A DNA stretch of 64,000 nt, from positions 62,001 through 126,000 of the forward strand of contig JAUXUD010000023.1 in NCBI GenBank assembly GCA_030680835.1, written 5' to 3'. Positions 1-63,828 of this stretch are shown here, in pieces. The notes below the pieces were generated by a model, which had not been told where the DNA came from, ran no database searches, and was given only the letters and a program-made list of their open reading frames with translations. The position numbers were made by a program, and so were the translations under genes. Source of the DNA: Bacteroidota bacterium. GTDB lineage: Bacteria; Bacteroidota; Bacteroidia; UKL13-3. Positions within the stretch are counted from its first letter, which is position 1; each line of letters opens with the position of its first letter.

Positions 1-3000
1 AGGTATAATTTCCTTCCGCTGTTGGTGTGAATACCGGACTTTGACAGTTATTACAGCTTAAATTAGTTGACGGACTCCATGCATAGGTGAACCCGCTTCC
101 GCCGGTTGCATTGGCAGTTATGGTTGCGCTTTGAGGGCCGTAACCCAGGTAAATATTTGTGTCCACGCCGCCGGTATAGTTGTTGTTTTCAGGAGTTACA
201 GAAATGTTGCATAATGGGATTGCTCCATTCATGGTTACAGCAATAGTATTTGAGGTTTTGGTTCCGCATGACCTGGAGTTGCTTACATTATAGTTACCTG
301 CTTGAGAAACTATAATGGATTGTGTCGTTTCAAGATTCGACCATAGGTTGCCTGAAACGTTGTCAGAGGTGAGCGTAACCGAACTACCTTCGCAAATATC
401 TGTTGAACCGCTTGCTATAATTACCGGTTCAGGAACAGGACTTACCATTCCATAAATATTTTTGGTTGTTGCGATAACCTGATCGGTGGTGCAATCAAAG
501 CTTATAAGGGTTGCTCCGGATTCCAGTGTAAACACATCACCCGGACCGGTAAGTGTTAAAGTATGCTCAAGCAAATCCAAAGTACCGGATTGAACCCGGA
601 AATCCTGGCCAATTCCATTTAATCTAAGATTCTCATTTAAATAAACGGTACCTGAAGGTTTATCAATAGTGAACAAACCATTTGGCAAATCCAAAGCATT
701 TATATGTTGATCTGTTGTTCCGTTTAACGTGATAGTTGCGTTACCGCCGACTGCAGCATCAACAGAGTACAAATTGCCTTTCAAAAAAACAGAACCTGAA
801 TAAATGTCGCTTTTAATGTTGTTTATTATAAGATTTCCACCTATGCTGATGGTTCCGAGATATAAATAGTCAACATAGTTTAAAGTTAGATTGCCGGTAA
901 TCACCAGTGGATTGCCAGTTGATGTTCCTTTAACCTCAAAGTTATAACGAACAACGGAGGGAAGCGAAACTGTAATATTACCAAAGGTAAGCGAGCCCGG
1001 GGTAATACTTGTAGTATACATACCAGAAAAACTTATTGAAGAAATTTCCGATGGACTTACTGTCCCGGCAATGTGTTCGAAAGACCCACCAATTCGCAGA
1101 TTCGCATTATCAGCACCTGAAAAATCAACTGTTCCCGATGACTTGTTAATAATGATTCCCGGAAGCATGGCATTTGTTCCTGTGCTTACATATTGAGTTC
1201 CTGTTCCGTTAAAAATAACATTGCCTAAACTTATGAAGGAAGTATCGTAAGAGGTAAGATTACCTTTCAAAAAAACAGAACCTGTGTGGATGTAGCTTAT
1301 AATGTTGTTAATTATAAGATTTCCACCAATACTGATGGTCCCTGGAAAGAAAGTAGTTACATCGTTTAAAGTTAAATTGCCGGTAATCACAAGTGGGTTG
1401 CCGGTTGATGTTCCAATTACTTCAAAGATATCTAAATATGAAATAGAGGGAATCGAAACCGTAATATTACCGAAGGTAAGTGAGCCAGGGGTAATACTAG
1501 AAATACTAGAAAAATTTATGGAAGAAAATGCCGATGGACTTACCGTCCCGGCAATGTGTGCGAAAGATCCACGAATTCGCAGATTCGCATTATCAGCACC
1601 TGAAAAATCAACTGTTCCCGATGACTTGTTAATAATAATTCCCGGAAGCATGGCATTTGTTCCTGTGCTTACATATTGAGTTCCTGTTCCGTTAAAAATA
1701 ACATTGCCTAAACTTCTAAATGAAGTATCGTAAGAGGTAAGATTACCTTTCAAAAAAATAGACCCCGTGTAGATGGCACTTTTAATGTTGTTTATTATAA
1801 GATTTCCACCAATACAGATGGTTCCGGGATATAAAGTAGATACATCGTTTAAAGTTAAATTACCGGTAATCACCAGTGGGCTGCCGGTTGATGTTCCTTT
1901 TACTTCAAAGTTATAATAATATGCATTGGAGGGAATTGAAACCGTAATATTACCGAAGGTAAGTGAGCCCGGGGTAATATTGGTAGTACCAAGACCAGAA
2001 AAAAATATGGAAGAAATTGCCGATGGACTCACCGTCCCTGCCATGTGAACAAAAGATCCACCAATATGCAGATTTGCATTATCTGCACCAGAAAAATCAA
2101 CTGTTCCCGATGACTTGTCTATAATAATTCCCGGAAGCATGGCATTTGTCCCTGTGCTTACATATTGGGTACCTGTTCCGTTTAAAATAATATTGCCTGT
2201 ACTTGTAAAGGAGGTATCATTAGAGACTAAATTTCCTTTCAGGTAAATTGAGCCTGCACCAATTGACCTATTGATTGAATTAATAGTTAAATCTCCACCT
2301 ATGGTAATAAATCCAGGATTCAAAACATCCACACTATTTATAACCATATTACCTGCAATTTTCAAGGGGTTTGATTCTGTTGTACCGATGACAGTAAAGG
2401 ATCTATTTGTACCAACTGTCAAATCGCCAAAAGATATAGACCCAGGAATTAAACTTAAGTCATGATTACTAAGGAATATAACCGAAAATATAACCGACGG
2501 AAATGTGGACGGATTTAGCGTTCCCGAAAGGTTTACAAAAGAACCCGCCATTCTTAGATTTGCATTGTCAGCTCCTGTAAAGTCTGCCGTACCTGATGAC
2601 TTTTTAATGATTATACCGGGTAGCATGGCATTTGTTCCGGTACTTATATATTGATCACCGGTACCACAAAGTATTACATTTCCCGGGCTAACATATCCTA
2701 CATCATTAGAGACTAAATTTCCTTTCAGGTAAATCGATCCTACACCGCCTGCACCGATTGACCTGTTAATTGAATTAATAATTAAATCTCCATCTATGGT
2801 AATAATGCCGGGAATCAAAAGATCCACACTATTTATAATCAGATTACCTGTAATTTTTAAGGGATTTGATTCCGTTGTACCACTGACAGTAAGTATTCTA
2901 TTTAACGCAACTGATACAGTCAAATCGCCAAATGTAATAGAACCCGGAATCAAACTTAAAAATTGATTACTAATGAATATAACCGACGGAAAGGTGGACG

Positions 3001-3934
3001 GATTTACCGTTCCTGAAATGTTCTCAAAAGAACCGACCATTCTTAGATTTGCATTGTTAGCTCCTGTAAAATCTGCTGTACCTGAAGGCTTTTTAATGAA
3101 TATACCGGGTAGCATGGCATTTGTTCCGGTACTTATATATTGATCTCCGGTACCACAAAGTATTACATTTGCCGGGCTAACATATTCTACATCATTAGAA
3201 ACTAAATTTCCATTCAGGTAAATAGAACCTGCACCAATTGACCTGTTGATTGAATTAATGACAAGATTTCCACCAATTGAAATAAAACCTGGAGTCAAAT
3301 AATCTAAACTATTAATAACCAAACTCCCACTAATCTTCAAAGGGTTTGATTCTGTTGTACCACTGACAGTAAAGGAATAACTTGTACCAACTGATATGGT
3401 CAAATCATTAAATAATATATCGCCAGGTGTTAAAGTTGGGTAAGTTCCGGTAAAATTTATGTTGCCATTATTATGTATGTACGTCCCACCTGAGTTTGTA
3501 AAATTTCCGCCAACAGTGAACAATGCCGGGGCAATGAAAACACCATCGGCCTGACTAAACCCACCGCTGCCAATAGTAATGGTTGCTGCGCCTGCAACAG
3601 AAACGGTTCCGGTGTAGCCCGAACGCATCGCCAATGAAAGCACATTTACATTTACATCCACCAGCAAATCATCAGTTCGTGTAATATCTAGGATCACATC
3701 ATCTGATGTCCCGGGAATTCCCGAAGGTGACCAGTTGGAGGAGGTTGACCACTTGTTGTTACCCGATGCATTCATCCAGGTCTTTGTTGTTCCATATACA
3801 TCCATTAACAAACAAAATAAAATAAAAATGATTGCTAAATATTTCTTCTGTTTGCCTTCAACGGCAAATGAACGTTTAACAGGTTTGTGCACATTAGGGG
3901 TAATGCTGCTAAAAATCAATATTGGTTTTTTCAT
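1..3934 (-). CDS. Giant secreted repeat adhesin, N-terminal part (cut by window edge)
   Basis: About 1,311 codons of one open frame are visible; the C-terminus lies beyond the left edge. The start at 3934 (MKKPILIF) is the only ATG before the hydrophobic export segment at residues 32-44, which gives an unusually long charged n-region. Residues about 50-160 hold a Bacteroidota surface-protein opening (WSTSSNWSPSG). Residues about 165-1050 are tandem units of 161-163 residues rich in G-N-L/I-x-I-N steps, suggesting a beta-helix-like stalk. Residues about 1180-1225 look like an Ig-like module (CEGSSVTL, then WSNLETTQSI), and about 1260-1311 like a SprB/PKD-type module (TITANATGGSG). No catalytic motif is seen. 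A T9SS sorting domain would be expected at the missing C-terminus, but that is inference. It lies directly downstream of a LytTR two-component system on the same strand, with its own predicted promoter and operator. Confidence 0.85.
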   Translation of the reverse strand, partial: MKKPILIFSSITPNVHKPVKRSFAVEGKQKKYLAIIFILFCLLMDVYGTTKTWMNASGNNKWSTSSNWSPSGIPGTSDDVILDITRTDDLLVDVNVNVLSLAMRSGYTGTVSVAGAATITIGSGGFSQADGVFIAPALFTVGGNFTNSGGTYIHNNGNINFTGTYPTLTPGDILFNDLTISVGTSYSFTVSGTTESNPLKISGSLVINSLDYLTPGFISIGGNLVINSINRSIGAGSIYLNGNLVSNDVEYVSPANVILCGTGDQYISTGTNAMLPGIFIKKPSGTADFTGANNANLRMVGSFENISGTVNPSTFPSVIFISNQFLSLIPGSITFGDLTVSVALNRILTVSGTTESNPLKITGNLIINSVDLLIPGIITIDGDLIINSINRSIGAGGVGSIYLKGNLVSNDVGYVSPGNVILCGTGDQYISTGTNAMLPGIIIKKSSGTADFTGADNANLRMAGSFVNLSGTLNPSTFPSVIFSVIFLSNHDLSLIPGSISFGDLTVGTNRSFTVIGTTESNPLKIAGNMVINSVDVLNPGFITIGGDLTINSINRSIGAGSIYLKGNLVSNDTSFTSTGNIILNGTGTQYVSTGTNAMLPGIIIDKSSGTVDFSGADNANLHIGGSFVHMAGTVSPSAISSIFFSGLGTTNITPGSLTFGNITVSIPSNAYYYNFEVKGTSTGSPLVITGNLTLNDVSTLYPGTICIGGNLIINNIKSAIYTGSIFLKGNLTSYDTSFRSLGNVIFNGTGTQYVSTGTNAMLPGIIINKSSGTVDFSGADNANLRIRGSFAHIAGTVSPSAFSSINFSSISSITPGSLTFGNITVSIPSISYLDIFEVIGTSTGNPLVITGNLTLNDVTTFFPGTISIGGNLIINNIISYIHTGSVFLKGNLTSYDTSFISLGNVIFNGTGTQYVSTGTNAMLPGIIINKSSGTVDFSGADNANLRIGGSFEHIAGTVSPSEISSISFSGMYTTSITPGSLTFGNITVSLPSVVRYNFEVKGTSTGNPLVITGNLTLNYVDYLYLGTISIGGNLIINNIKSDIYSGSVFLKGNLYSVDAAVGGNATITLNGTTDQHINALDLPNGLFTIDKPSGTVYLNENLRLNGIGQDFRVQSGTLDLLEHTLTLTGPGDVFTLESGATLISFDCTTDQVIATTKNIYGMVSPVPEPVIIASGSTDICEGSSVTLTSDNVSGNLWSNLETTQSIIVSQAGNYNVSNSRSCGTKTSNTIAVTMNGAIPLCNISVTPENNNYTGGVDTNIYLGYGPQSATITANATGGSGFTYAWSPSTNLSCNNCQSPVFTPTAEGNYT
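781..3440. repeat. Five-unit tandem coding repeat, 483-489 bp per unit
   Basis: The anchor agcatggcatttgtt recurs at 1164, 1647, 2136, 2622 and 3111, giving unit lengths of 483, 489, 486 and 489 bp, all multiples of three. The units encode 161-163 residues each. Two subfamilies are visible. Units near 800-2200 share phrases such as NKSSGTVDFSGADNANL and GTSTGNPLVITGNL. Units near 2230-3400 use ILCGTGDQYISTGTNA and GTTESNPLKI. Resemblance at DNA level within a subfamily is high, so unequal recombination could change copy number without shifting the frame. Confidence 0.85.
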
Positions 3935-3984
3935 ATGGCTGAAATTTAAGTGCCCCCTAAAAGAGGACTATCTATTTGTTCAAC

Positions 3985-4016
3985 CAAAGTTAGCAGCAGT
4001 AGAATAAGGTAAGCAA
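3985..4016 (-). promoter_or_regulatory. Predicted Bacteroidota sigma-A promoter of the adhesin gene
   Basis: Read on the minus strand, TTG (4016-4014) is followed by 21 bp and then TAACTTTG (3992-3985), a full match to the -7 consensus TANNTTTG. Transcription would start near 3979, leaving a leader of about 45 nt before the ATG at 3934. The direct repeats at 4026-4055 sit about 10 bp upstream of the -33 element, where an activator would act. Confidence 0.6.
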
Positions 4017-4025
4017 CCCCCAACT

Positions 4026-4055
4026 TATAAGTGTTGGACTTGGGTGTATAAGTGT
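4026..4055 (-). promoter_or_regulatory. Perfect 9-bp direct repeat, 21-bp pitch: candidate LytTR operator
   Basis: Read on the minus strand, ACACTTATA occurs at 4055-4047 and again at 4034-4026, separated by exactly 12 bp. LytTR-type DNA-binding domains are known to bind two roughly 9-bp direct repeats about two helical turns apart. The site lies between the end of the LytTR regulator gene and the predicted adhesin promoter. Assigning it to this regulator is inference from architecture and position. Confidence 0.6.
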
Positions 4056-4072
4056 AGAGAAATGAGTTATTT

Positions 4073-4831
4073 TTACAAACGTACCCTTTTTAGAAAATCA
4101 TCTTTTTTCCTCACGGATACATCCACGAGGCTGTCGTCATTCATAATAACATGACCACCGCTGCCGCGAACATATTTTTTGACCTGTGCGAGGTTGATGA
4201 TAAAGGAATGATGCACCCGCATAAAATTGTCTACTTCCAAAAATTCTTCATATTCTCTTAAAGGTTTGGAAACCATCAGGGTATTTTTTTGCAAGAAATG
4301 AAAAATGGTATAGCTGCCATCCGCTTCTAATTTTATAATATCTTTTACATCAATAAATATTAAACCTTCTTTAGTAGGAAGTGCAATTCTTTGATTTTTT
4401 TGTTTTGGCTCCATAATCGTTTGAAGCAGCAGGTCAATCCTATCTGAATTGTCCTTTTTATTTTTATTGCTAATTGATCTTTCAACGGCAGCTATCAACT
4501 CCATGTGGTTGACCGGTTTCATCAGGTAGTCTATGGCTGCGTACTTAAAAGCCCTAACAGCATAGTGGTCAAAAGCAGTGACAAAGATGACGGAAAAATT
4601 TCGTTCGCTTATTTTGTCCAGAATTTCAAATGACAACTTGTCCCCCAACTCAATATCCATAAAAACTATTTCCGGTTGCACAGCAGATAAAGCATTAATG
4701 GCATCTTCAACATTACCCGCTTCACCAACTACATGAACTATGGGGCAATGCATTTTCAACAGTCCTTTTAATACGCTCATGTTTCGTTTTTCATCCTCAA
4801 CGATGAATGCCTTGCTATTTGCTTCTAACAT
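4073..4831 (-). CDS. LytTR-family response regulator
   Basis: 252 residues. The N-terminal receiver domain (about 7-125) has the acidic pair E12/D13, phosphoacceptor D59 (VFMDIEL), T85 and K105 (YLMKPV). The C-terminal LytTR DNA-binding domain (about 145-250) carries the usual ADGSYTIFHF and MRVHHSFIINL stretches. The gene begins 9 bp after the stop of the sensor kinase gene, so the two are almost certainly co-transcribed and cognate. The kinase would phosphorylate D59 and the dimer would then bind paired direct repeats. Such a pair occurs just past this gene, ahead of the giant adhesin, which is the likely target. The ATG at 4831 is the only reasonable start. Confidence 0.95.
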   Translation of the reverse strand: MLEANSKAFIVEDEKRNMSVLKGLLKMHCPIVHVVGEAGNVEDAINALSAVQPEIVFMDIELGDKLSFEILDKISERNFSVIFVTAFDHYAVRAFKYAAIDYLMKPVNHMELIAAVERSISNKNKKDNSDRIDLLLQTIMEPKQKNQRIALPTKEGLIFIDVKDIIKLEADGSYTIFHFLQKNTLMVSKPLREYEEFLEVDNFMRVHHSFIINLAQVKKYVRGSGGHVIMNDDSLVDVSVRKKDDFLKRVRL

Positions 4832-4840
4832 ATAGCAAGT

Positions 4841-7717
4841 TTATGAAAAATATCCGATAAAATTCAATATGATTTTGGTGCCGGATGCCATACCGTTTGC
4901 ATTCGTTAAATCTTCAATATTCAGTACAATTTTAAAGCTGCCTTCGGAATTATACTTTTCAATTCGCGATTCAATTATGTCCATTGCAGCCGACTTGTGT
5001 CCTGAAGGTTTTTGCAAACCAGCTTTCACCCTGCCACAGCCATTGTCTTCAATGCTGCATAACAAATTATTTGATCTTTTTTTAAAAGATAAAATCAATG
5101 ATCCATTCCGTTTGCCACATAAACCGTGATGAATCGCATTTTCAATAAAAGGTTGCAACAACATGGATGGGAATTCACACTCTGGAGTATCGATGTCAGC
5201 GTCTACCTCCACACCAAATTGAAATGAATGGTTGCAACGCAGTTTTTCCATTTCAATATACCTTGTCAGAAAATTTATTTCATCAGAAAGTGGTAATTGT
5301 TCTCTTCGGGCATTTTCAAGAGTCATACGCATCAAAAGAGCAAAATCGCTCAGATAAATGCTCGCTTCCATTTTCTTCTGCTTTAAAACAAAATCCTGAA
5401 TAGAATTAAGTGCGTTAAACACAAAATGAGGATTCATTTGTGAACGCAAAGCCCGAAGCTCAACCTTTAAAGATTCAGTTTTCAATTGCTCCTCCTTTCT
5501 GATTGTGACAATACGTTGCCATATAAACCCTATAGGGGCCAGGCTCAGGAAACCAACGACCAGCAGCATAAACCAGATTTCTTTCCAAACGGGAGGATGA
5601 ATATAAAAATCCAGGACTTGTGATTGTGTATTCCACGTGTCATTTAAATTTTCTGCCTGCACCTCAAAATGGTATATATCGGGAGAAAGAGATGCAAACG
5701 ACACATTTGGTATACTTGTATATGTCCATTCTGTATCAACGTTATCTATTCTGTAACGGTAATTAATTTTTCCAAAACTCCGGAATGAAATTCCGGTAAA
5801 CGAAATATTAATATTATTTTGCTCATGATTGAGATCATACGTTTTTCCAATCCTTTTTTCTTCATGGTTGATGTATATTTTCGAGATGAGCAATCTGGTT
5901 TCATGATTTGGTTGATTTGTTATATCTACCGGGTATTGGATGACTCCGTTTTCGGTTGCTATCCATAAATTGCCCGCTTTAACAAACACATCATATATAA
6001 GCATGGGTGGCTGGTAAGGCAATTTTCGGATTTCCTTAATTTTTACAAATCCATTGGCTTTTACAAAATCTATTCTATATACGGAATAAGTACCTACAGC
6101 AAAAACTTTGTTTCCATCAATACACAAACGGCTTATTTCATGTTCCATCCCATACTTGCGTCTTAAGGAGAGGATAGAATCTCCCGATTTTACCAAAACA
6201 CCTTCGGTTCGGCTGGCAATCCAAATAGTGCTGTCATCACTAGCCCGCATCATATTTACCGGGGCATTATAGTGTTCATTACCTTTGAGAGGCACAAGTT
6301 TTTCATCCTGAAAATAAAACAGCCCCTTTTCAGTTCCGGCAATTATTTTGTTCTTTTCTTCTGCAAGGCCATATATCCGATAGGGGTTATTCTCCAAAGT
6401 GTGCCTTATCCTTTTTCCTTTTGGGTGAAATTCTATTATTTCAAATCCTGCAGCATAAAATATTCCTCTCTTTGACAAGTAGCCAGTTTTAAAAAACCCC
6501 TTTTTAAATGGAACAATTTTATTATCAGACGAAATTACTTTGTGTTGGAGAATATAATAATAGTGTTTTTTTTTGCATACCAAATCATAAGGAACAGCAT
6601 GCCTATCTGGAGCAAATAATCGATGTGCCCCAATTTCATTGAATTGATACAACTGACCGTCTGCTGTTCCTGCCAAGTAATGTTTTTCAGTTGCGCTTAT
6701 TCTACTTACTACATTTCCTCCGAAAAACTTATTATCAAAAACTTTCAGGTTTAGTTCGGGCAACAACAGCAAACCATGCGAATAAGTACCCGCCCACAAA
6801 TTGCCTTCCTTATCTCTGAAACAATTGGTAATATTGTAATCCCCCAGCATTTTATTCTTCAATTCAAATTCACTGCTATAAATAAATATCCCTCTATTAG
6901 AGGAAACCAGTAAGTCACCGGATTTATCTTCCAAAATCCGGCTAACATTTAATTTAACCGGAAAATAGGCTACCTTTTTGATAGAGGTAAAATCTGAAAA
7001 ATACAAACAGCTTTCAGTTATTAATATAAGTCCCTTCCGGGAAGGGAATAAACTGTATGATTCAGTCCAATTTTCATTAGGAGGAAGGCCACCCATTCCC
7101 TGCTTAAAGGTTTTATCAAAATACCATACCTTTGAACTGTCAGCTAAAAAACTCATACGTCCGAATTCATCAATCCATGGTTTGAATGGATCAGATTCAT
7201 CTGGTACATTAGGCATCTTATATTTTTCAAAATCTGCAGAGCCAAATGTTTCAATCTTATTATTTCTAATCTTGCATCCTTTGGTTGCTATCAACCATGT
7301 ATTTCCAAAGCTGTCATTGATGGCATGTGCAATATAACCTTCCAAATCCTTATTCTTTAGAAGGGGCTCATTTGAAGAATTTGAAATCCTGTTATTCTCA
7401 TAATAACAGAGTTTGCCATTCATGGTTCTAAACCAGATTCGGCCCATTTTGTCCTCAATCATTCCCAGTACTGAATTATCGGATAACCCTTCAGCAACGG
7501 TAAAGATTTCAAACCGGGTCCCGTCAAACCGGCAAGCCCCTTTGTCGGTCCCAAACCAGATATAGCCCTTTGAATCCTGCATAATTTCATAAACGGTATT
7601 TGAAGGTAAACCATTTTCAACTGTATATTTCCGATGGAAAGGATCCTGGGCCCGAAGCTGACAAGCCAGGATTATAAAAGTGCAAATAAATAGAGCAGCT
7701 GGATTTCGAATATTCAT
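4841..7717 (-). CDS. Membrane sensor histidine kinase, LytS type, with propeller and Y_Y_Y sensory domains
   Basis: 958 residues from the ATG at 7717, where a clear signal peptide starts (hydrophobic core, then CQLRAQ). The periplasmic region (about 25-600) has propeller blades of the two-component-regulator type (GLPSNTVYEIMQDSKGYIWF, GLSDNSVLGMIEDKMGRIWF). A Y_Y_Y domain follows at about 620-710 (INISFTGISF, YRYRIDN). One membrane segment lies near 720-742. The cytoplasmic part is a His_kinase/HATPase unit: phospho-His about 764 in QMNPHFVFNALNS, N-box FIENAIHHG and G-box DNGCGR. An upstream TTG at 7756 is in frame but falls inside the predicted promoter, so it was not used. It probably senses an extracellular cue and signals to the LytTR regulator 9 bp downstream. 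Confidence 0.93.
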   Translation of the reverse strand: MNIRNPAALFICTFIILACQLRAQDPFHRKYTVENGLPSNTVYEIMQDSKGYIWFGTDKGACRFDGTRFEIFTVAEGLSDNSVLGMIEDKMGRIWFRTMNGKLCYYENNRISNSSNEPLLKNKDLEGYIAHAINDSFGNTWLIATKGCKIRNNKIETFGSADFEKYKMPNVPDESDPFKPWIDEFGRMSFLADSSKVWYFDKTFKQGMGGLPPNENWTESYSLFPSRKGLILITESCLYFSDFTSIKKVAYFPVKLNVSRILEDKSGDLLVSSNRGIFIYSSEFELKNKMLGDYNITNCFRDKEGNLWAGTYSHGLLLLPELNLKVFDNKFFGGNVVSRISATEKHYLAGTADGQLYQFNEIGAHRLFAPDRHAVPYDLVCKKKHYYYILQHKVISSDNKIVPFKKGFFKTGYLSKRGIFYAAGFEIIEFHPKGKRIRHTLENNPYRIYGLAEEKNKIIAGTEKGLFYFQDEKLVPLKGNEHYNAPVNMMRASDDSTIWIASRTEGVLVKSGDSILSLRRKYGMEHEISRLCIDGNKVFAVGTYSVYRIDFVKANGFVKIKEIRKLPYQPPMLIYDVFVKAGNLWIATENGVIQYPVDITNQPNHETRLLISKIYINHEEKRIGKTYDLNHEQNNINISFTGISFRSFGKINYRYRIDNVDTEWTYTSIPNVSFASLSPDIYHFEVQAENLNDTWNTQSQVLDFYIHPPVWKEIWFMLLVVGFLSLAPIGFIWQRIVTIRKEEQLKTESLKVELRALRSQMNPHFVFNALNSIQDFVLKQKKMEASIYLSDFALLMRMTLENARREQLPLSDEINFLTRYIEMEKLRCNHSFQFGVEVDADIDTPECEFPSMLLQPFIENAIHHGLCGKRNGSLILSFKKRSNNLLCSIEDNGCGRVKAGLQKPSGHKSAAMDIIESRIEKYNSEGSFKIVLNIEDLTNANGMASGTKIILNFIGYFS

Positions 7718-7726
7718 AAGGCTATT

Positions 7727-7756
7727 CAAAAATAAGACGATTCCAAAATAATGCAA
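7727..7756 (-). promoter_or_regulatory. Predicted promoter of the two-component operon
   Basis: On the minus strand TTG (7756-7754), 19 bp, then TATTTTTG (7734-7727) match the Bacteroidota consensus TTG-N19-TANNTTTG. The start site would be near 7720, only a few bases before the ATG at 7717, so the transcript would be nearly leaderless. Confidence 0.55.
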
Positions 7757-42285: not shown

Positions 42286-44166
42286 ATGGCAGCAGAAGCA
42301 GTTAGGTACGACGAAAGTAGCATTAAATCATTGGATTGGCGGGAGCATATACGGCTACGTCCGGGTATGTATATTGGCAAATTGGGCGACGGTAGCGCCA
42401 TGGATGACGGGATTTACATTTTATTGAAGGAGATTATTGATAACTCCATTGACGAATATGTGATGGGCAATGGTCGCCAGATTGATATTAAAGTTACAGA
42501 CAGCAAGGCATTTATAAGGGATTACGGACGTGGAATTCCATTGGGAAAGGTTATTGAGTGCGTTTCACAGATAAATACGGGCGGGAAATACGATTCCCAG
42601 GCGTTTAAAAAGTCGGTGGGTTTAAATGGAGTGGGAACCAAGGCGGTGAATGCATTGTCGGCGAGTTTTAAAGTGCAATCTTTCAGAGATGGTAAAACCA
42701 AGATCGTAGAGTTTGAAAAAGGGAATCTGATTAAGGACCACAAGCTTCAGGATACCATTGAACCCAACGGCACTGCAATTACCTTTATTCCGGATGATGG
42801 CATTTTTAAGCATTATCGGTTTATCAGCGAGTTTTTTGAAAACATGCTCTGGAATTATGTGTATCTCAACTCCGGATTAACGATTTGGTTCAACGATAAA
42901 AAATTCTTTTCCAAAGATGGTTTGCTGGATTTGCTGAAACGCAAAACCAATGAAGAAGCATTGCGTTACCCGATTATTCATTTAAAAGGGGAGGACATTG
43001 AAGTAGCGATTACCCACGAAAATCAGTATGGAGAAGAGTATTACAGCTTTGTAAACGGTCAGCATACCACGCAGGGTGGAACGCACCTGAATGCTTTCAG
43101 AGAAGCATTTGCCAAAACAGTTCGTGAGTATTATAAAAAAGATTTTGATTTGGCGGATATACGTGCAAGCATCATAGCTGCTGTAAGCATCCGGGTGCAG
43201 GAGCCTGTATTCGAAAGTCAGACCAAAACCAAGCTGGGTTCAAGCAATATGGCGCCCACCGAATCGCAATCGGTAAAACAATTTGTAACCGATTTTTTAA
43301 AGAAAAGTCTGGATGATTATTTACACAAACACCCCGAAACCTCCGATGCATTACTACGCCGCATTAACCAGAGTGAGCGCGAACGCAAGGAGATGGCCGG
43401 TATAAAAAAACTGGCTAATGAACGTGCTAAGAAAGCGAATCTGCACAACAAAAAATTACGCGATTGCCGCGTACATTATAACGAAAGCAAAGACGAACGT
43501 AAATTTGATACCACTTTATTTATAACTGAAGGAGACTCGGCAAGTGGTTCCATTACCAAATCGCGAAACGTGGAGTTTCAGGCAGTATTTAGTTTACGCG
43601 GAAAGCCATTGAACAGTTATGGTTTAACCAAAAAAATTGTATACGAAAACGAAGAGTTTAACCTGCTACAACATGCGCTTAACATTGAAGAGAGCATTGA
43701 AGACCTGCGTTACAACCGCATTGTAGTGGCAACCGATGCCGATGTGGATGGGATGCATATACGTTTGTTATTGCTCACTTTTTTCCTGCAATTTTTCCCG
43801 GATCTGGCAAAAAACGGACATTTATATATTTTGGAAACCCCTTTATTCAGGGTTCGTAACAAACAAAAAACCATTTACTGTTACAGTGATGAAGAAAAGC
43901 AAAATGCAATCCACCAATTAGGAACCCGGCCCGAAATTACCCGTTTTAAAGGCCTGGGAGAAATTTCGCCCGAAGAGTTTGGTTTGTTTATAGGAGAAGA
44001 TATGCGCCTGCAACCGGTATTGGTTCGCCATGATACCCCCATCCAAAAAATGCTGGAATATTATATGGGCAAAAACACCATGGACCGCCAGGCATTTATC
44101 ATTGATAATCTACGTATTGAAAAGGATATGGTTTATAAATCAGAAATCGAAGAGGAATTGGTGTAG
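42286..44166 (+). CDS. parE: DNA topoisomerase IV subunit B
   Basis: 626 residues, the GyrB/ParE family without a GyrB-type insert. The N-terminal GHKL ATPase domain has [24 protein letters not shown] and [14 protein letters not shown]. The transducer domain is at about 230-400. The TOPRIM domain has [15 protein letters not shown] and [15 protein letters not shown], with the acidic metal ligands. The C-terminus has [14 protein letters not shown]. The phrase [20 protein letters not shown] is typical of Bacteroidota ParE. With ParC it decatenates daughter chromosomes. The parC gene is not adjacent but 17 kb further on. A TATTTTTG element lies too close to the start codon to be its -7 box. Confidence 0.93.
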
Positions 44167-44173
44167 GCAACAA

Positions 44174-44267
44174 ATGTACGATGTACGATGTACGATGTAC
44201 GATGTACGATGTACGATGTACGATGTACGATGTACGATGTACGATGTACGATGTACGATGTACGATG
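44174..44267. repeat. Perfect 7-bp tandem repeat, about 13.4 copies
   Basis: The unit ATGTACG is repeated without error from 44174 to 44267, starting 8 bp after the parE stop and ending about 40 bp before the end of the convergent fdhD gene. Because 7 is not a multiple of 3, any frame through it cycles with a 7-residue period (YDVRCTM). Those frames are not real proteins. Such arrays change length by slippage. Confidence 0.95.
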
Positions 44268-61143: not shown

Positions 61144-63828
61144 ATGGACGAGATGAATTTAGATAATAATCCTGAGAATCAGGATGATGAAACCCCGCAT
61201 GAATACCATATAACGGCTGTAAACGGCTTGTATGAAAATTGGTTTTTGGACTATGCTTCCTACGTAATCCTTGAACGTGCAGTGCCTGCCATTGAAGATG
61301 GATTAAAACCCGTGCAGCGTCGTATTATGCACTCCATGAAGGAGATGGATGACGGCCGGTTCAATAAAGTAGCAAACGTAATCGGACAAACCATGCAATA
61401 TCACCCACATGGTGATGCTGCCATTGGCGATGCACTGGTAAATTTAGGGCAGAAAGATTTATTGATGGAAACCCAGGGAAACTGGGGAGATGTAAGAACC
61501 GGAGATTCGGCTGCTGCACCCCGTTATATTGAAGCCAGACTATCGAAGTTTGCTCTGGAAGTTGCATTTAACAAGCAAACCACCCAATGGCAGAACTCTT
61601 ACGACGGAAGAAAAAAAGAACCGGTATGTCTGCCCATGAAGTTTCCTTTGTTATTGGCACAGGGTGTTGAAGGCATTGCCGTGGGCCTGGCTACCAAAGT
61701 GATGCCCCATAATTTTTGCGAATTAATTACAGCTTCCATTGATTATCTGAAAGGCAAAAAATTTGAACTTTTCCCTGATTTTGCCACAGGAGGCACCGTA
61801 GATGTTGCCAATTACAATCAGGGTCGCAAAGGCGGAAAAGTAAGAGTGCGGGCACGGATTGAGGAATCGGACAAAAAAACCTTATTTGTAAGGGATGTTC
61901 CTTATGGTACCACAACCACTCAGTTAATTGATTCCATTATCAAGGCCAATGATTCGGGGAAAATTAAAATCAAGAAGGTAATCGACAATACAGCTAAGGA
62001 TGTTGAAGTTGAAATTCAACTGGCACCTGGCGTTTCACCCGATAAAACCATAGATGCGCTTTATGCTTTTACCGATTGCGAAATCAGTATTTCGCCCAAT
62101 GCATGTGTAATTGTTGACGACAGACCCGTTTTTGTAGGTGTTGATGAGTTGTTGCAGATTTCTACTGAAAAAACAAAAGAGCTGCTTCGCCAGGAACTGG
62201 AAATTAAAAAGGGGGAACTGGAAGAACAGTGGCATTACAGCAGTATTGAAAAGATTTTCATAGAAAAGCGAATTTACCGCGATATTGAAGAATGTGAAAG
62301 CTTTGAAGAAGTAATTGATGTGATCTGGAAGGGGATGAATAAGTATAAAAAATTATTCAGGCGTGCTTTAACCGAGGACGATATTTTACGGTTGACTGAA
62401 ATCAAAATCAAGCGCATTTCCAAGTACGATTCGTTTAAGGCTGATGAAATTATGAAAGGCCTGGAAGCTCAATTGGCGCAGGTTATCAGCGATATTGAAA
62501 ACCTCAAGGCATATTGCATCAAATACTTTGAAAACCTCTTAAAGAAATACGGTAAAGGCCGTGAACGCAAAACCGAAATAAAAACTTTTGATACCATTGA
62601 CTCAAAAACAGTTGCGATTGCAAACCAAAAATTATATGTAAACCGGGCAGAAGGCTTTGTGGGTTATGGTTTAAAAAAGGACGAATACCTTTGCGATTGC
62701 TCAGATATTGACGATATCATCGTATTTAAGAAAGATGGGAAGATGATTGTGAGCAAGGTGCAGGAAAAAGCATTTATGGGCAAAGATATTATTCATGTGG
62801 ACGTGTTCAGAAAAAATGATGAACGCCGCATTTATAATATGATTTATCTGGATGGCAAAACAAAGGTTAGCTATGCCAAACGCTTTCCGGTAACCGGAGT
62901 AACCCGGGACAAAGAATACGATTTAACTCAGGGAACACCCAATTCGAGGGTTTTATATTTTACTGCAAATCCATCGGGTGAAGCCGAAGTGGTAAACATT
63001 ACTTTAAGTCCGCTAAGTCATGCACGCAAGCTGAGTTTTGATTTCGACTTTACCGATTTAGCCATTAAAGGCAGAGGTGTACAGGGAAATATACTAAGCA
63101 AATATCTGGTTAAAAGTATCAAATTAAAATCAAAAGGCATATCAACCCTGGGTGGCATAAACCTGTGGTATGATGATGCCATAGGCAGAATAAACACCAA
63201 TGAACATGGCAGTTATCTGGGCAATTTCCTGGGAAATGATTTGATTCTGGCATTATATAAAGATGGCAATTACGAGCTCACCAATTTTGACATCAGCAAT
63301 CATTATGAATACGAGCAACTCATACATATCTGTAAGTTTATTCCCGACAGACCTGTAAGTGTAATCTATTATGACGCAAGAGGAAAAAACTTTATAACGA
63401 AGCGATTTTTAATTGAGACGCTAACCCTAAATAAAAAATTTATTTGCATACCGGAAGAAAAGGGCAACTATATTTTGCTGGCAACCCATTACAAAAATCC
63501 GATTGTAATTTTAACTACAGGCAAAGGAAAATCGCTACTGGAAACCCAGATTAACCTGGCAGAATTTATAGAAGTTAAAGGGTGGAAGAGCATTGGTAAT
63601 AAATTTGCAGGCAGCGATTTAACAAAGCTCGAATTATTACCTCCTGATCCGGAAGATGAACTGGAAGAAGCCATTCAGGATGCTACCGAGAATTTGGTGA
63701 ATGAAGATTTGTTTTCACAGGAAGAAGAGAAAATCAAGAAACTATTATCGGATGATTCTGAAATGGAAACCCATATTAAAAAACCCAAACCAAAAGGAAA
63801 AGGTCCGGAACAACCGAAGTTATTTTAG
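61144..63828 (+). CDS. parC: DNA topoisomerase IV subunit A
   Basis: 894 residues, GyrA/ParC family. The opening phrase ENWFLDYASYVILERAVPAI and the catalytic tyrosine Y128 (AAPRYIEARL) lie in the breakage-reunion domain. The stretch HPHGDAAIGD corresponds to the quinolone region, without the Ser of GyrA. No GyrA-box is present in the C-terminal region, consistent with topoisomerase IV and not gyrase. The last 50 residues are basic and proline-rich (KKPKPKGKGPEQP). With ParE it unlinks chromosomes. parE lies 17 kb upstream in this window, a separation worth noting. The end overlaps the convergent rlmF by 9 bp. Confidence 0.93.
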   Translation: MDEMNLDNNPENQDDETPHEYHITAVNGLYENWFLDYASYVILERAVPAIEDGLKPVQRRIMHSMKEMDDGRFNKVANVIGQTMQYHPHGDAAIGDALVNLGQKDLLMETQGNWGDVRTGDSAAAPRYIEARLSKFALEVAFNKQTTQWQNSYDGRKKEPVCLPMKFPLLLAQGVEGIAVGLATKVMPHNFCELITASIDYLKGKKFELFPDFATGGTVDVANYNQGRKGGKVRVRARIEESDKKTLFVRDVPYGTTTTQLIDSIIKANDSGKIKIKKVIDNTAKDVEVEIQLAPGVSPDKTIDALYAFTDCEISISPNACVIVDDRPVFVGVDELLQISTEKTKELLRQELEIKKGELEEQWHYSSIEKIFIEKRIYRDIEECESFEEVIDVIWKGMNKYKKLFRRALTEDDILRLTEIKIKRISKYDSFKADEIMKGLEAQLAQVISDIENLKAYCIKYFENLLKKYGKGRERKTEIKTFDTIDSKTVAIANQKLYVNRAEGFVGYGLKKDEYLCDCSDIDDIIVFKKDGKMIVSKVQEKAFMGKDIIHVDVFRKNDERRIYNMIYLDGKTKVSYAKRFPVTGVTRDKEYDLTQGTPNSRVLYFTANPSGEAEVVNITLSPLSHARKLSFDFDFTDLAIKGRGVQGNILSKYLVKSIKLKSKGISTLGGINLWYDDAIGRINTNEHGSYLGNFLGNDLILALYKDGNYELTNFDISNHYEYEQLIHICKFIPDRPVSVIYYDARGKNFITKRFLIETLTLNKKFICIPEEKGNYILLATHYKNPIVILTTGKGKSLLETQINLAEFIEVKGWKSIGNKFAGSDLTKLELLPPDPEDELEEAIQDATENLVNEDLFSQEEEKIKKLLSDDSEMETHIKKPKPKGKGPEQPKLF

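Follow-up and report, generated by a model that had tools for sequence, protein, structure and literature searches.

A candidate LytTR operator between a sensor kinase/regulator gene pair and a T9SS-exported surface-protein gene in a Bacteroidota bacterium

AgrA of Staphylococcus aureus, a LytTR regulator of Firmicute peptide quorum sensing, works with a sensor unlike the kinase of the Bacteroidota locus considered here. Its P2 DNA, with the repeats ACAGTTAAG and ACAGTTAGG (PMC8228455), has a pitch of 21 bp as measured here; the repeats are reported to be centred near -60 (PMC4227749), and the 9-bp consensus ACAGTTAAG is described as being contacted by H169, N201 and R233 (PMC11039898, citing Sidote et al. 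2008). The E. coli systems YpdA/YpdB (annotated PyrS/PyrR) and BtsS/BtsR resemble the present locus in joining a LytTR regulator to a kinase of the LytS type. For YpdB, the operator described is a direct repeat (PMC4847170), also with a measured pitch of 21 bp, its half-site GGCATTTCAT being unlike the ACACTTATA found here, BtsS is reported to bind pyruvate in its membrane domain (PMC10653868), and the targets of both systems are named as transport proteins (PMC5552118). More generally, LytTR repeats are described as lying mostly 12 bp apart and, in autoactivated operons, as biased to about 10 bp upstream of the -35 element (PMC6193735). The same source presents the LytTR Regulatory Systems HdrRM and BrsRM of Streptococcus mutans, which resemble the present locus in the 12-bp spacing and the position about 10 bp ahead of -35, and in which the regulators pair with a membrane protein, not with a histidine kinase as here (PMC6193735). 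For kinase/LytTR pairs from the same class as the present bacterium, the titles listed in literature searches include no apparent description of operators.

The window, that is the whole 64-kb stretch of DNA that was analysed, corresponds to positions 62001-126000 of contig C42 in a genome of 4.3 Mb and 104 contigs. On its minus strand, a kinase gene is followed by a LytTR regulator gene, 138 bp of intergenic DNA and the gene of a 1479-aa surface protein. The sensor histidine kinase (4841..7756, minus strand) counts 971 aa from a TTG codon, its true start being perhaps the ATG at 7714 instead, and contains a Reg_prop propeller, a Y_Y_Y domain and a His_kinase domain (PF06580, 2.3e-21), all above the Pfam cut-off, with the H-box NPHFVFNALNSIQ read from the translation. 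A short part of the propeller also resembles PorZ, a T9SS protein, in a match to its NCBIfam model (1.1e-9) that stays under the model cut-off. After 9 bp on the same strand comes the regulator gene (4073..4831, minus strand), encoding 252 aa with Pfam matches to Response_reg (3.5e-16) and LytTR (8.2e-14), a receiver in which D13, D59, T85 and K105 are all conserved, and the C-terminal motif VDVSVRKKDDF. With a receiver plus LytTR domain beside an adjacent PF06580-type kinase, the two genes have the make-up of a LytS/LytTR two-component system, in a genome with 13 LytTR matches in total; the nearest named relatives of the regulator in its search belong to Niastella and Terrimonas (Bacteroidota).

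The window holds the first 1311 of the 1479 codons of the surface-protein gene (2..3934, minus strand), which continues for about 505 bases beyond it (L064:9495-13934). The protein has repeats rich in beta structure and ends in a sorting domain of T9SS type A (residues 1406-1477; TIGR04183, 30 bits for a cut-off of 23), a domain also present in the next two proteins downstream. Compared with adhesive domains, the part inside the window gives only a G8 match under threshold (22.4 bits, cut-off 22.9). An adhesive function is conceivable, and so is the sensing of an extracellular cue by the propeller kinase. The original prediction had placed kinase, regulator, repeats, promoter and large ORF in line on one strand, and all five do lie on the minus strand; its description of the adhesin as 'giant', however, is out of proportion for a protein of 1479 aa.

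The intergenic DNA contains the perfect 9-bp direct repeat with 12-bp spacer and 21-bp pitch that had drawn attention to the locus. Its form, ACACTTATA-N12-ACACTTATA (4026-4055, minus strand), begins 17 bp past the LytTR stop codon, the distal half-site occupying 4055-4047 and the proximal one 4034-4026. The promoter TTG-N21-TAACTTTG, which the repeat had been said to precede by about 10 bp, is likewise in place: 9 bp separate the end of the proximal half-site from a -33 element TTG (4016-4014, minus strand), and 21 bp further lies a -7 element TAACTTTG of the Bacteroidota TAnnTTTG type (3992-3985, minus strand), 33 nt from the proximal half-site. The Bacteroidota box consensus is reported to occupy -12 to -5 (PMC9723704); if the box sits there, transcription is predicted to start near 3980, and the candidate operator would therefore span about -46 to -75. 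Its centre would fall near -60 like that of AgrA P2, here counted from a predicted start.

Comparison with AgrA brings out further similarities. A profile alignment lays the V-S-V-R-K-K of the regulator on the A-S-V-R-N-V of AgrA, with a similarity of only about 20 bits; both proteins have S-V-R at the C-terminal strand of the LytTR domain, and R241 of the regulator probably corresponds to AgrA R233. The half-site core ACACTTA differs by one base from the ACAGTTA of AgrA P2 and is repeated at the same 21-bp pitch, in front of a promoter whose type is unlike that of AgrA. Two 9-bp repeats two turns apart, upstream of a -33 element and similar in sequence to a known operator, are what characterizes LytTR operators, and the pair is on these grounds a putative member of the group. 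All features of the locus fit the known LytTR kind, and it represents an ordinary type of switch in an interesting setting. The reading preferred here, with a probability of about 0.82, is that the pair serves as the LytTR operator of the adjacent regulator, placed before the surface-protein promoter and acting in activation. This core claim draws its support from the agreement of five observations set out below and above, namely the enrichment of pitch 21 in the family, the peak of a sister half-site, the distance to the -7 element, the layout of locus L202 and the AgrA operator. It is thus very likely, as judged from comparative sequence evidence, that the operator is real, belongs to the adjacent regulator and drives the gene of the T9SS-exported surface protein.

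A chance origin of the pair is the first alternative to be weighed, in which case transcription of the surface-protein gene would come by readthrough out of the kinase operon or begin at an unregulated promoter. Repeats of this size are not rare in 64 kb, where perfect 9-bp repeats occur roughly once per pitch and a single further non-tandem case with pitch 21 lies at 62193; the pair is notable because of its site beside a LytTR gene. For the intergenic segment itself (3935-4072), 14 of 20,000 dinucleotide shuffles produce a run of 9 bp or more at pitch 21, and 74 of 20,000 do so at any pitch from 19 to 23. The alternative can also invoke the genome-wide count of the window-type half-site at pitch 21, which is modestly above its reversed control (see below). 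Against it stand the shuffles, the concordance of pitch, position, strand and -7 distance in the family, and the AgrA-like sequence, which together make it very unlikely; chance was rejected on the shuffles, the family pitch and the geometry. A wide scattering of the pair over the genome had been named beforehand as a sign against an operator, and the perfect ACACTTATA pair occurs a single time. With up to three mismatches, seven matches are found, including the perfect pair, versus 17 for the reversed pattern; these near-matches were dropped as further operators, their count below the control indicating chance.

No close orthologue of the regulator exists among 196 genomes of relatives, where the best match has about 45 % identity, and a general survey of LytTR loci was therefore undertaken. 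A match to the regulator is present in 130 of the 196, and 80 LytTR loci were taken among the matches listed. In the non-coding DNA touching the LytTR or kinase genes of these loci, pitch 21 accounts for 27 pairs with at least 8/9 identity, 11 of them perfect, spread over 21 loci and 16 genera, versus means of 4.6 pairs (maximum 9) and 0.6 perfect ones (maximum 3) for 28 other pitches between 12 and 40 in the same DNA. Pairs devoid of motif likeness (e.g. in L104, the second in L098 and the third in L144) are retained among the 27, and tandem- or random-looking pitch-21 matches in loci of the window's own genome (L069, L070, L071 and L073) are excluded from the counts. Pitch 21 is also highest in the more distant non-coding DNA of the 80 loci (20 pairs with at least 8/9 versus a mean of 7.6, only two perfect), where some of the pairs may be further operators and others may express a general bias. 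In the window's own genome, another LytTR gene has a same-strand ORF of 2619 aa behind it (L071:6679-17337), and the 200 bp searched around the gap contain no pair with 8/9 identity or better at pitches 17-25.

An expectation-maximization (EM) search of the DNA near the LytTR genes of relatives yields the half-site CNRCCA[CGT]TTAW. Downstream positions predominate among the chosen sites (36 of 44 follow the LytTR stop codon, 35 of these on the LytTR strand), and in 13 of 16 same-genus loci the site lies at +28 to +40, to be compared with +17 for the start of the window pair. EM totals at several other pitches (e.g. 15, 16, 19 and 28) exceeded that of pitch 21 through more numerous, weaker sites: pitch 21 gives 44 sites with a mean of 19.4 per site, pitch 16 gives 80 with a mean of 13.4. 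Since such totals are inflated by weak sites, the argument on pitch uses identity counts instead. When the motif was applied to the window, its own operator was missing from the best 15 matches listed, because the CC of the motif is AC in this operator (A, not C, at position 4). This may denote a sister class of half-site and not evidence against the operator, as most training loci have regulators of the R type; the core CACTTA is common to the window half-site and several relatives. For several regulators in which V or I precedes the conserved R (L119, L126, L128 and L154), no clear pair is seen nearby.

Both half-site types were searched for genome-wide as pairs in 395 genomes of the same class. 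The sister half-site CCACTTAT forms 85 pairs with a gap of 3-30 bp, 45 of which have pitch 21 (25 genomes) and nine pitch 20, no other pitch exceeding five; its reversed control, run on 295 genomes, places 3 of 55 pairs at pitch 21, with a largest count of eight at pitch 33. From 42 candidate regions, 40 CCACTTAT loci were fetched; in 10 of them a LytTR gene lies no more than 4 kb away, and in 20 of the other 30 the site lies at most 250 bp from an ORF start, as would be the case in a dispersed regulon. In one family in particular, many ORFs, some of them about 1240 aa long, are preceded by dispersed CCACTTAT pairs with pitch 21 (L253-L273, in genomes G142, G175, G312, G335, G288, G103, G205 and G234), and this ensemble looks like a genome-wide LytTR regulon.

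The window-type half-site ACACTTAT forms 67 pairs, with 15 at pitch 21 (11 genomes) versus a mean of 1.9 elsewhere. Four of the 15 are tandem repeats with a 21-bp unit, all in genome G327; their exclusion leaves 11. The reversed control in the same 395 genomes has 8 of 54 pairs at pitch 21 and as many at pitch 15, so that the genome-wide concentration of ACACTTAT at pitch 21 is weak and only modestly above this control, and confidence in the preferred reading was lowered from 0.85 to 0.82 on that account. The reversed control may not be neutral, since certain LytTR half-sites contain a portion similar to ATTCAC; its pitch-21 pairs of TATTCACA are non-coding in six of eight cases (L289, L291, L293-L296), with no LytTR gene in the stretch. 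It is the neighbourhood of LytTR genes that tells ACACTTAT apart from this control: a LytTR gene lies within 4 kb in 4 of 10 pitch-21 loci (the window and L194-L202, G327 excluded) versus 0 of 8 reversed-control sites. The gene adjoins the site in the window, L202 and L199, and is 3.5 kb away in L197; at six of the nine loci other than the window, the fetched stretch contains no LytTR gene. For eight ACACTTAT loci with pitch 20 or 22, LytTR genes are found about 1.8 and 6 kb away in two. At L199:8677-9050, three copies of ACACTTAT follow one another at pitch 21 directly behind a LytTR ORF of 106 aa, too short for a receiver.

Geometry relative to the promoter also recurs. Among 57 pairs from 39 loci, a TAnnTTTG box lies 31-33 nt past the end of the proximal half-site in nine, versus 0.17 expected from upstream DNA; the nine come from six genomes and include the window, at 33. 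Six further boxes occur at other distances between 0 and 82 nt, three of them at 53-54, i.e. one repeat unit further. Such a distance is that of an activator presumably bound just upstream of the -33 element. The window layout recurs in L202, from another family of the same class, where a LytTR gene whose protein is 33 % identical to the window regulator, a ACACTTATT pair at pitch 21 and the gene of a 601-aa T9SS cargo succeed one another on one strand. Other kinase/LytTR loci of the class resemble the window in gene pair, pitch, downstream position and -7 distance, and differ from it in their mostly CC-type half-sites. Their downstream genes often encode proteins of about 1250 aa that resemble TonB-dependent receptors, as judged by length and C-terminus only.

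Activation, and not repression, is inferred from the location of the operator upstream of -33. A protein bound to a genuine LytTR operator could instead repress or merely tune the promoter, or feed back on the kinase-regulator operon. LytTR repressors do exist, as reported for CoxC (PMC11347149), and another pair of the same genome, C5b, is placed upstream of a LytTR-kinase operon itself. For C5b, a search with two mismatches gave four matches versus two in the control, and only the perfect copy was trusted. The CoxC repeats, however, are described as overlapping the -35 element, whereas those of the window stop 9 bp upstream of -33, close to the 10 bp favoured in autoactivated operons (PMC6193735); moreover, no such pair occurs in the 300 bp upstream of the window kinase, and the genome contains no second copy of the perfect pair. 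Repression, tuning or feedback is for these reasons unlikely.

The operator might also be recognized by a LytTR protein other than the adjacent one, the genome encoding 13 in all, and an example of action at a distance is suggested by contig C19, which bears an operator of the C5a type in trans. In the C5a system, TACCGTTCCCT pairs at pitch 21 number four, one of them with a mismatch, versus none in the control, and they lie 95-117 bp ahead of an ORF. These pairs (L066:9965-14848 and L189; contigs C5 and C19 of genome G000) precede a sensor-less kinase fragment of 224 aa and large ORFs, at least one of which is a T9SS cargo. Yet the pairs beside the other LytTR genes of the genome are unlike that of the window in sequence (TACCGTTCCCT, TACCATTCA, ACACGTTTA and CACATTTCATCC), and V before the conserved R is shared by the window regulator with C39 alone, among the 11 of 13 C-termini that were read. 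In C39 (AVRKK), ACACGTTTA occurs twice at pitch 21, 938 bp past the stop codon. The pairs of C5a, C30 and C39 were spotted by eye outside the strict next-to-operon rule and are illustrative, not part of the controlled counts. Control by a LytTR protein other than the adjacent regulator is decidedly unlikely, and the comparative tests speak, as the original prediction did, for an operator of the neighbouring regulator before the surface-protein promoter.

Differences between half-sites may reflect a recognition code, to which even odds are given here: the residue before the conserved contact arginine (R241 in the window regulator) would set the half-site step. A basic residue (SRR, SKR) is hypothesized to go with a CC step, CCA[CG]TTA, and V or A with AC, ACA[CG]TTA, a code that spans Staphylococcus AgrA (SVR, ACAGTTA) and the window regulator (SVR, ACACTTA). 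With one pair per locus, CC is present in both halves of the top pair in 18 of 22 basic regulators versus 0 of 4 non-basic ones (Fisher p 0.005); the four basic exceptions are L066, L067 and L113, with CC one base over, and L103. LytTR genes at most 4 kb from CCACTTAT pairs have a basic residue in 10 of 10 cases (the parse of L277 being doubtful), and those at most 4 kb from ACACTTAT pairs in 0 of 4 (V in the window, then A, F and M), a comparison that shares 4 of its 10 CCACTTAT loci and two ACACTTAT loci with the first test and is to be read against a base rate of 54 basic residues in 73 parsed among the 80 loci. The sample for the code comprises few non-basic cases and related sequences, and L199 has a truncated LytTR ORF. 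BtsR carries SRR, and its site, ACC[GA]CT[CT]A, would agree with the code. Sites like CATTTCAT accompany C30 (SREK) and YpdB (SRSK) and may form a third half-site class. If true, the code would make it possible to predict operators in different phyla from the protein sequence.

Operator class, pitch, the usual place just past the regulator gene and the fixed distance to TAnnTTTG emerge jointly from these comparisons. With operator class and geometry so defined, targets become readable from sequence, which provides a testable rule on which surface proteins and receptors each kinase/LytTR system controls. In the window, the propeller would perceive a ligand or a surface cue and so alter the activity of the kinase, which would phosphorylate the regulator at D59. 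Two regulator subunits would then occupy the two ACACTTATA half-sites, two helical turns apart and centred near -60, and the bound regulator would aid RNA polymerase at the TTG/TAACTTTG promoter, leading to production of the 1479-aa cargo and its export via the T9SS.

Two minor features of the window can be added. A short tandem repeat with a 7-bp unit occupies 44174-44267, right behind an ORF ending at 44166. A terminator-like hairpin of seven pairs lies at 3952-3968 (minus strand), within the predicted leader that separates the promoter from the surface-protein ATG; it is the one hairpin of this kind found in 3800-4300 versus a shuffle mean of 0.4.
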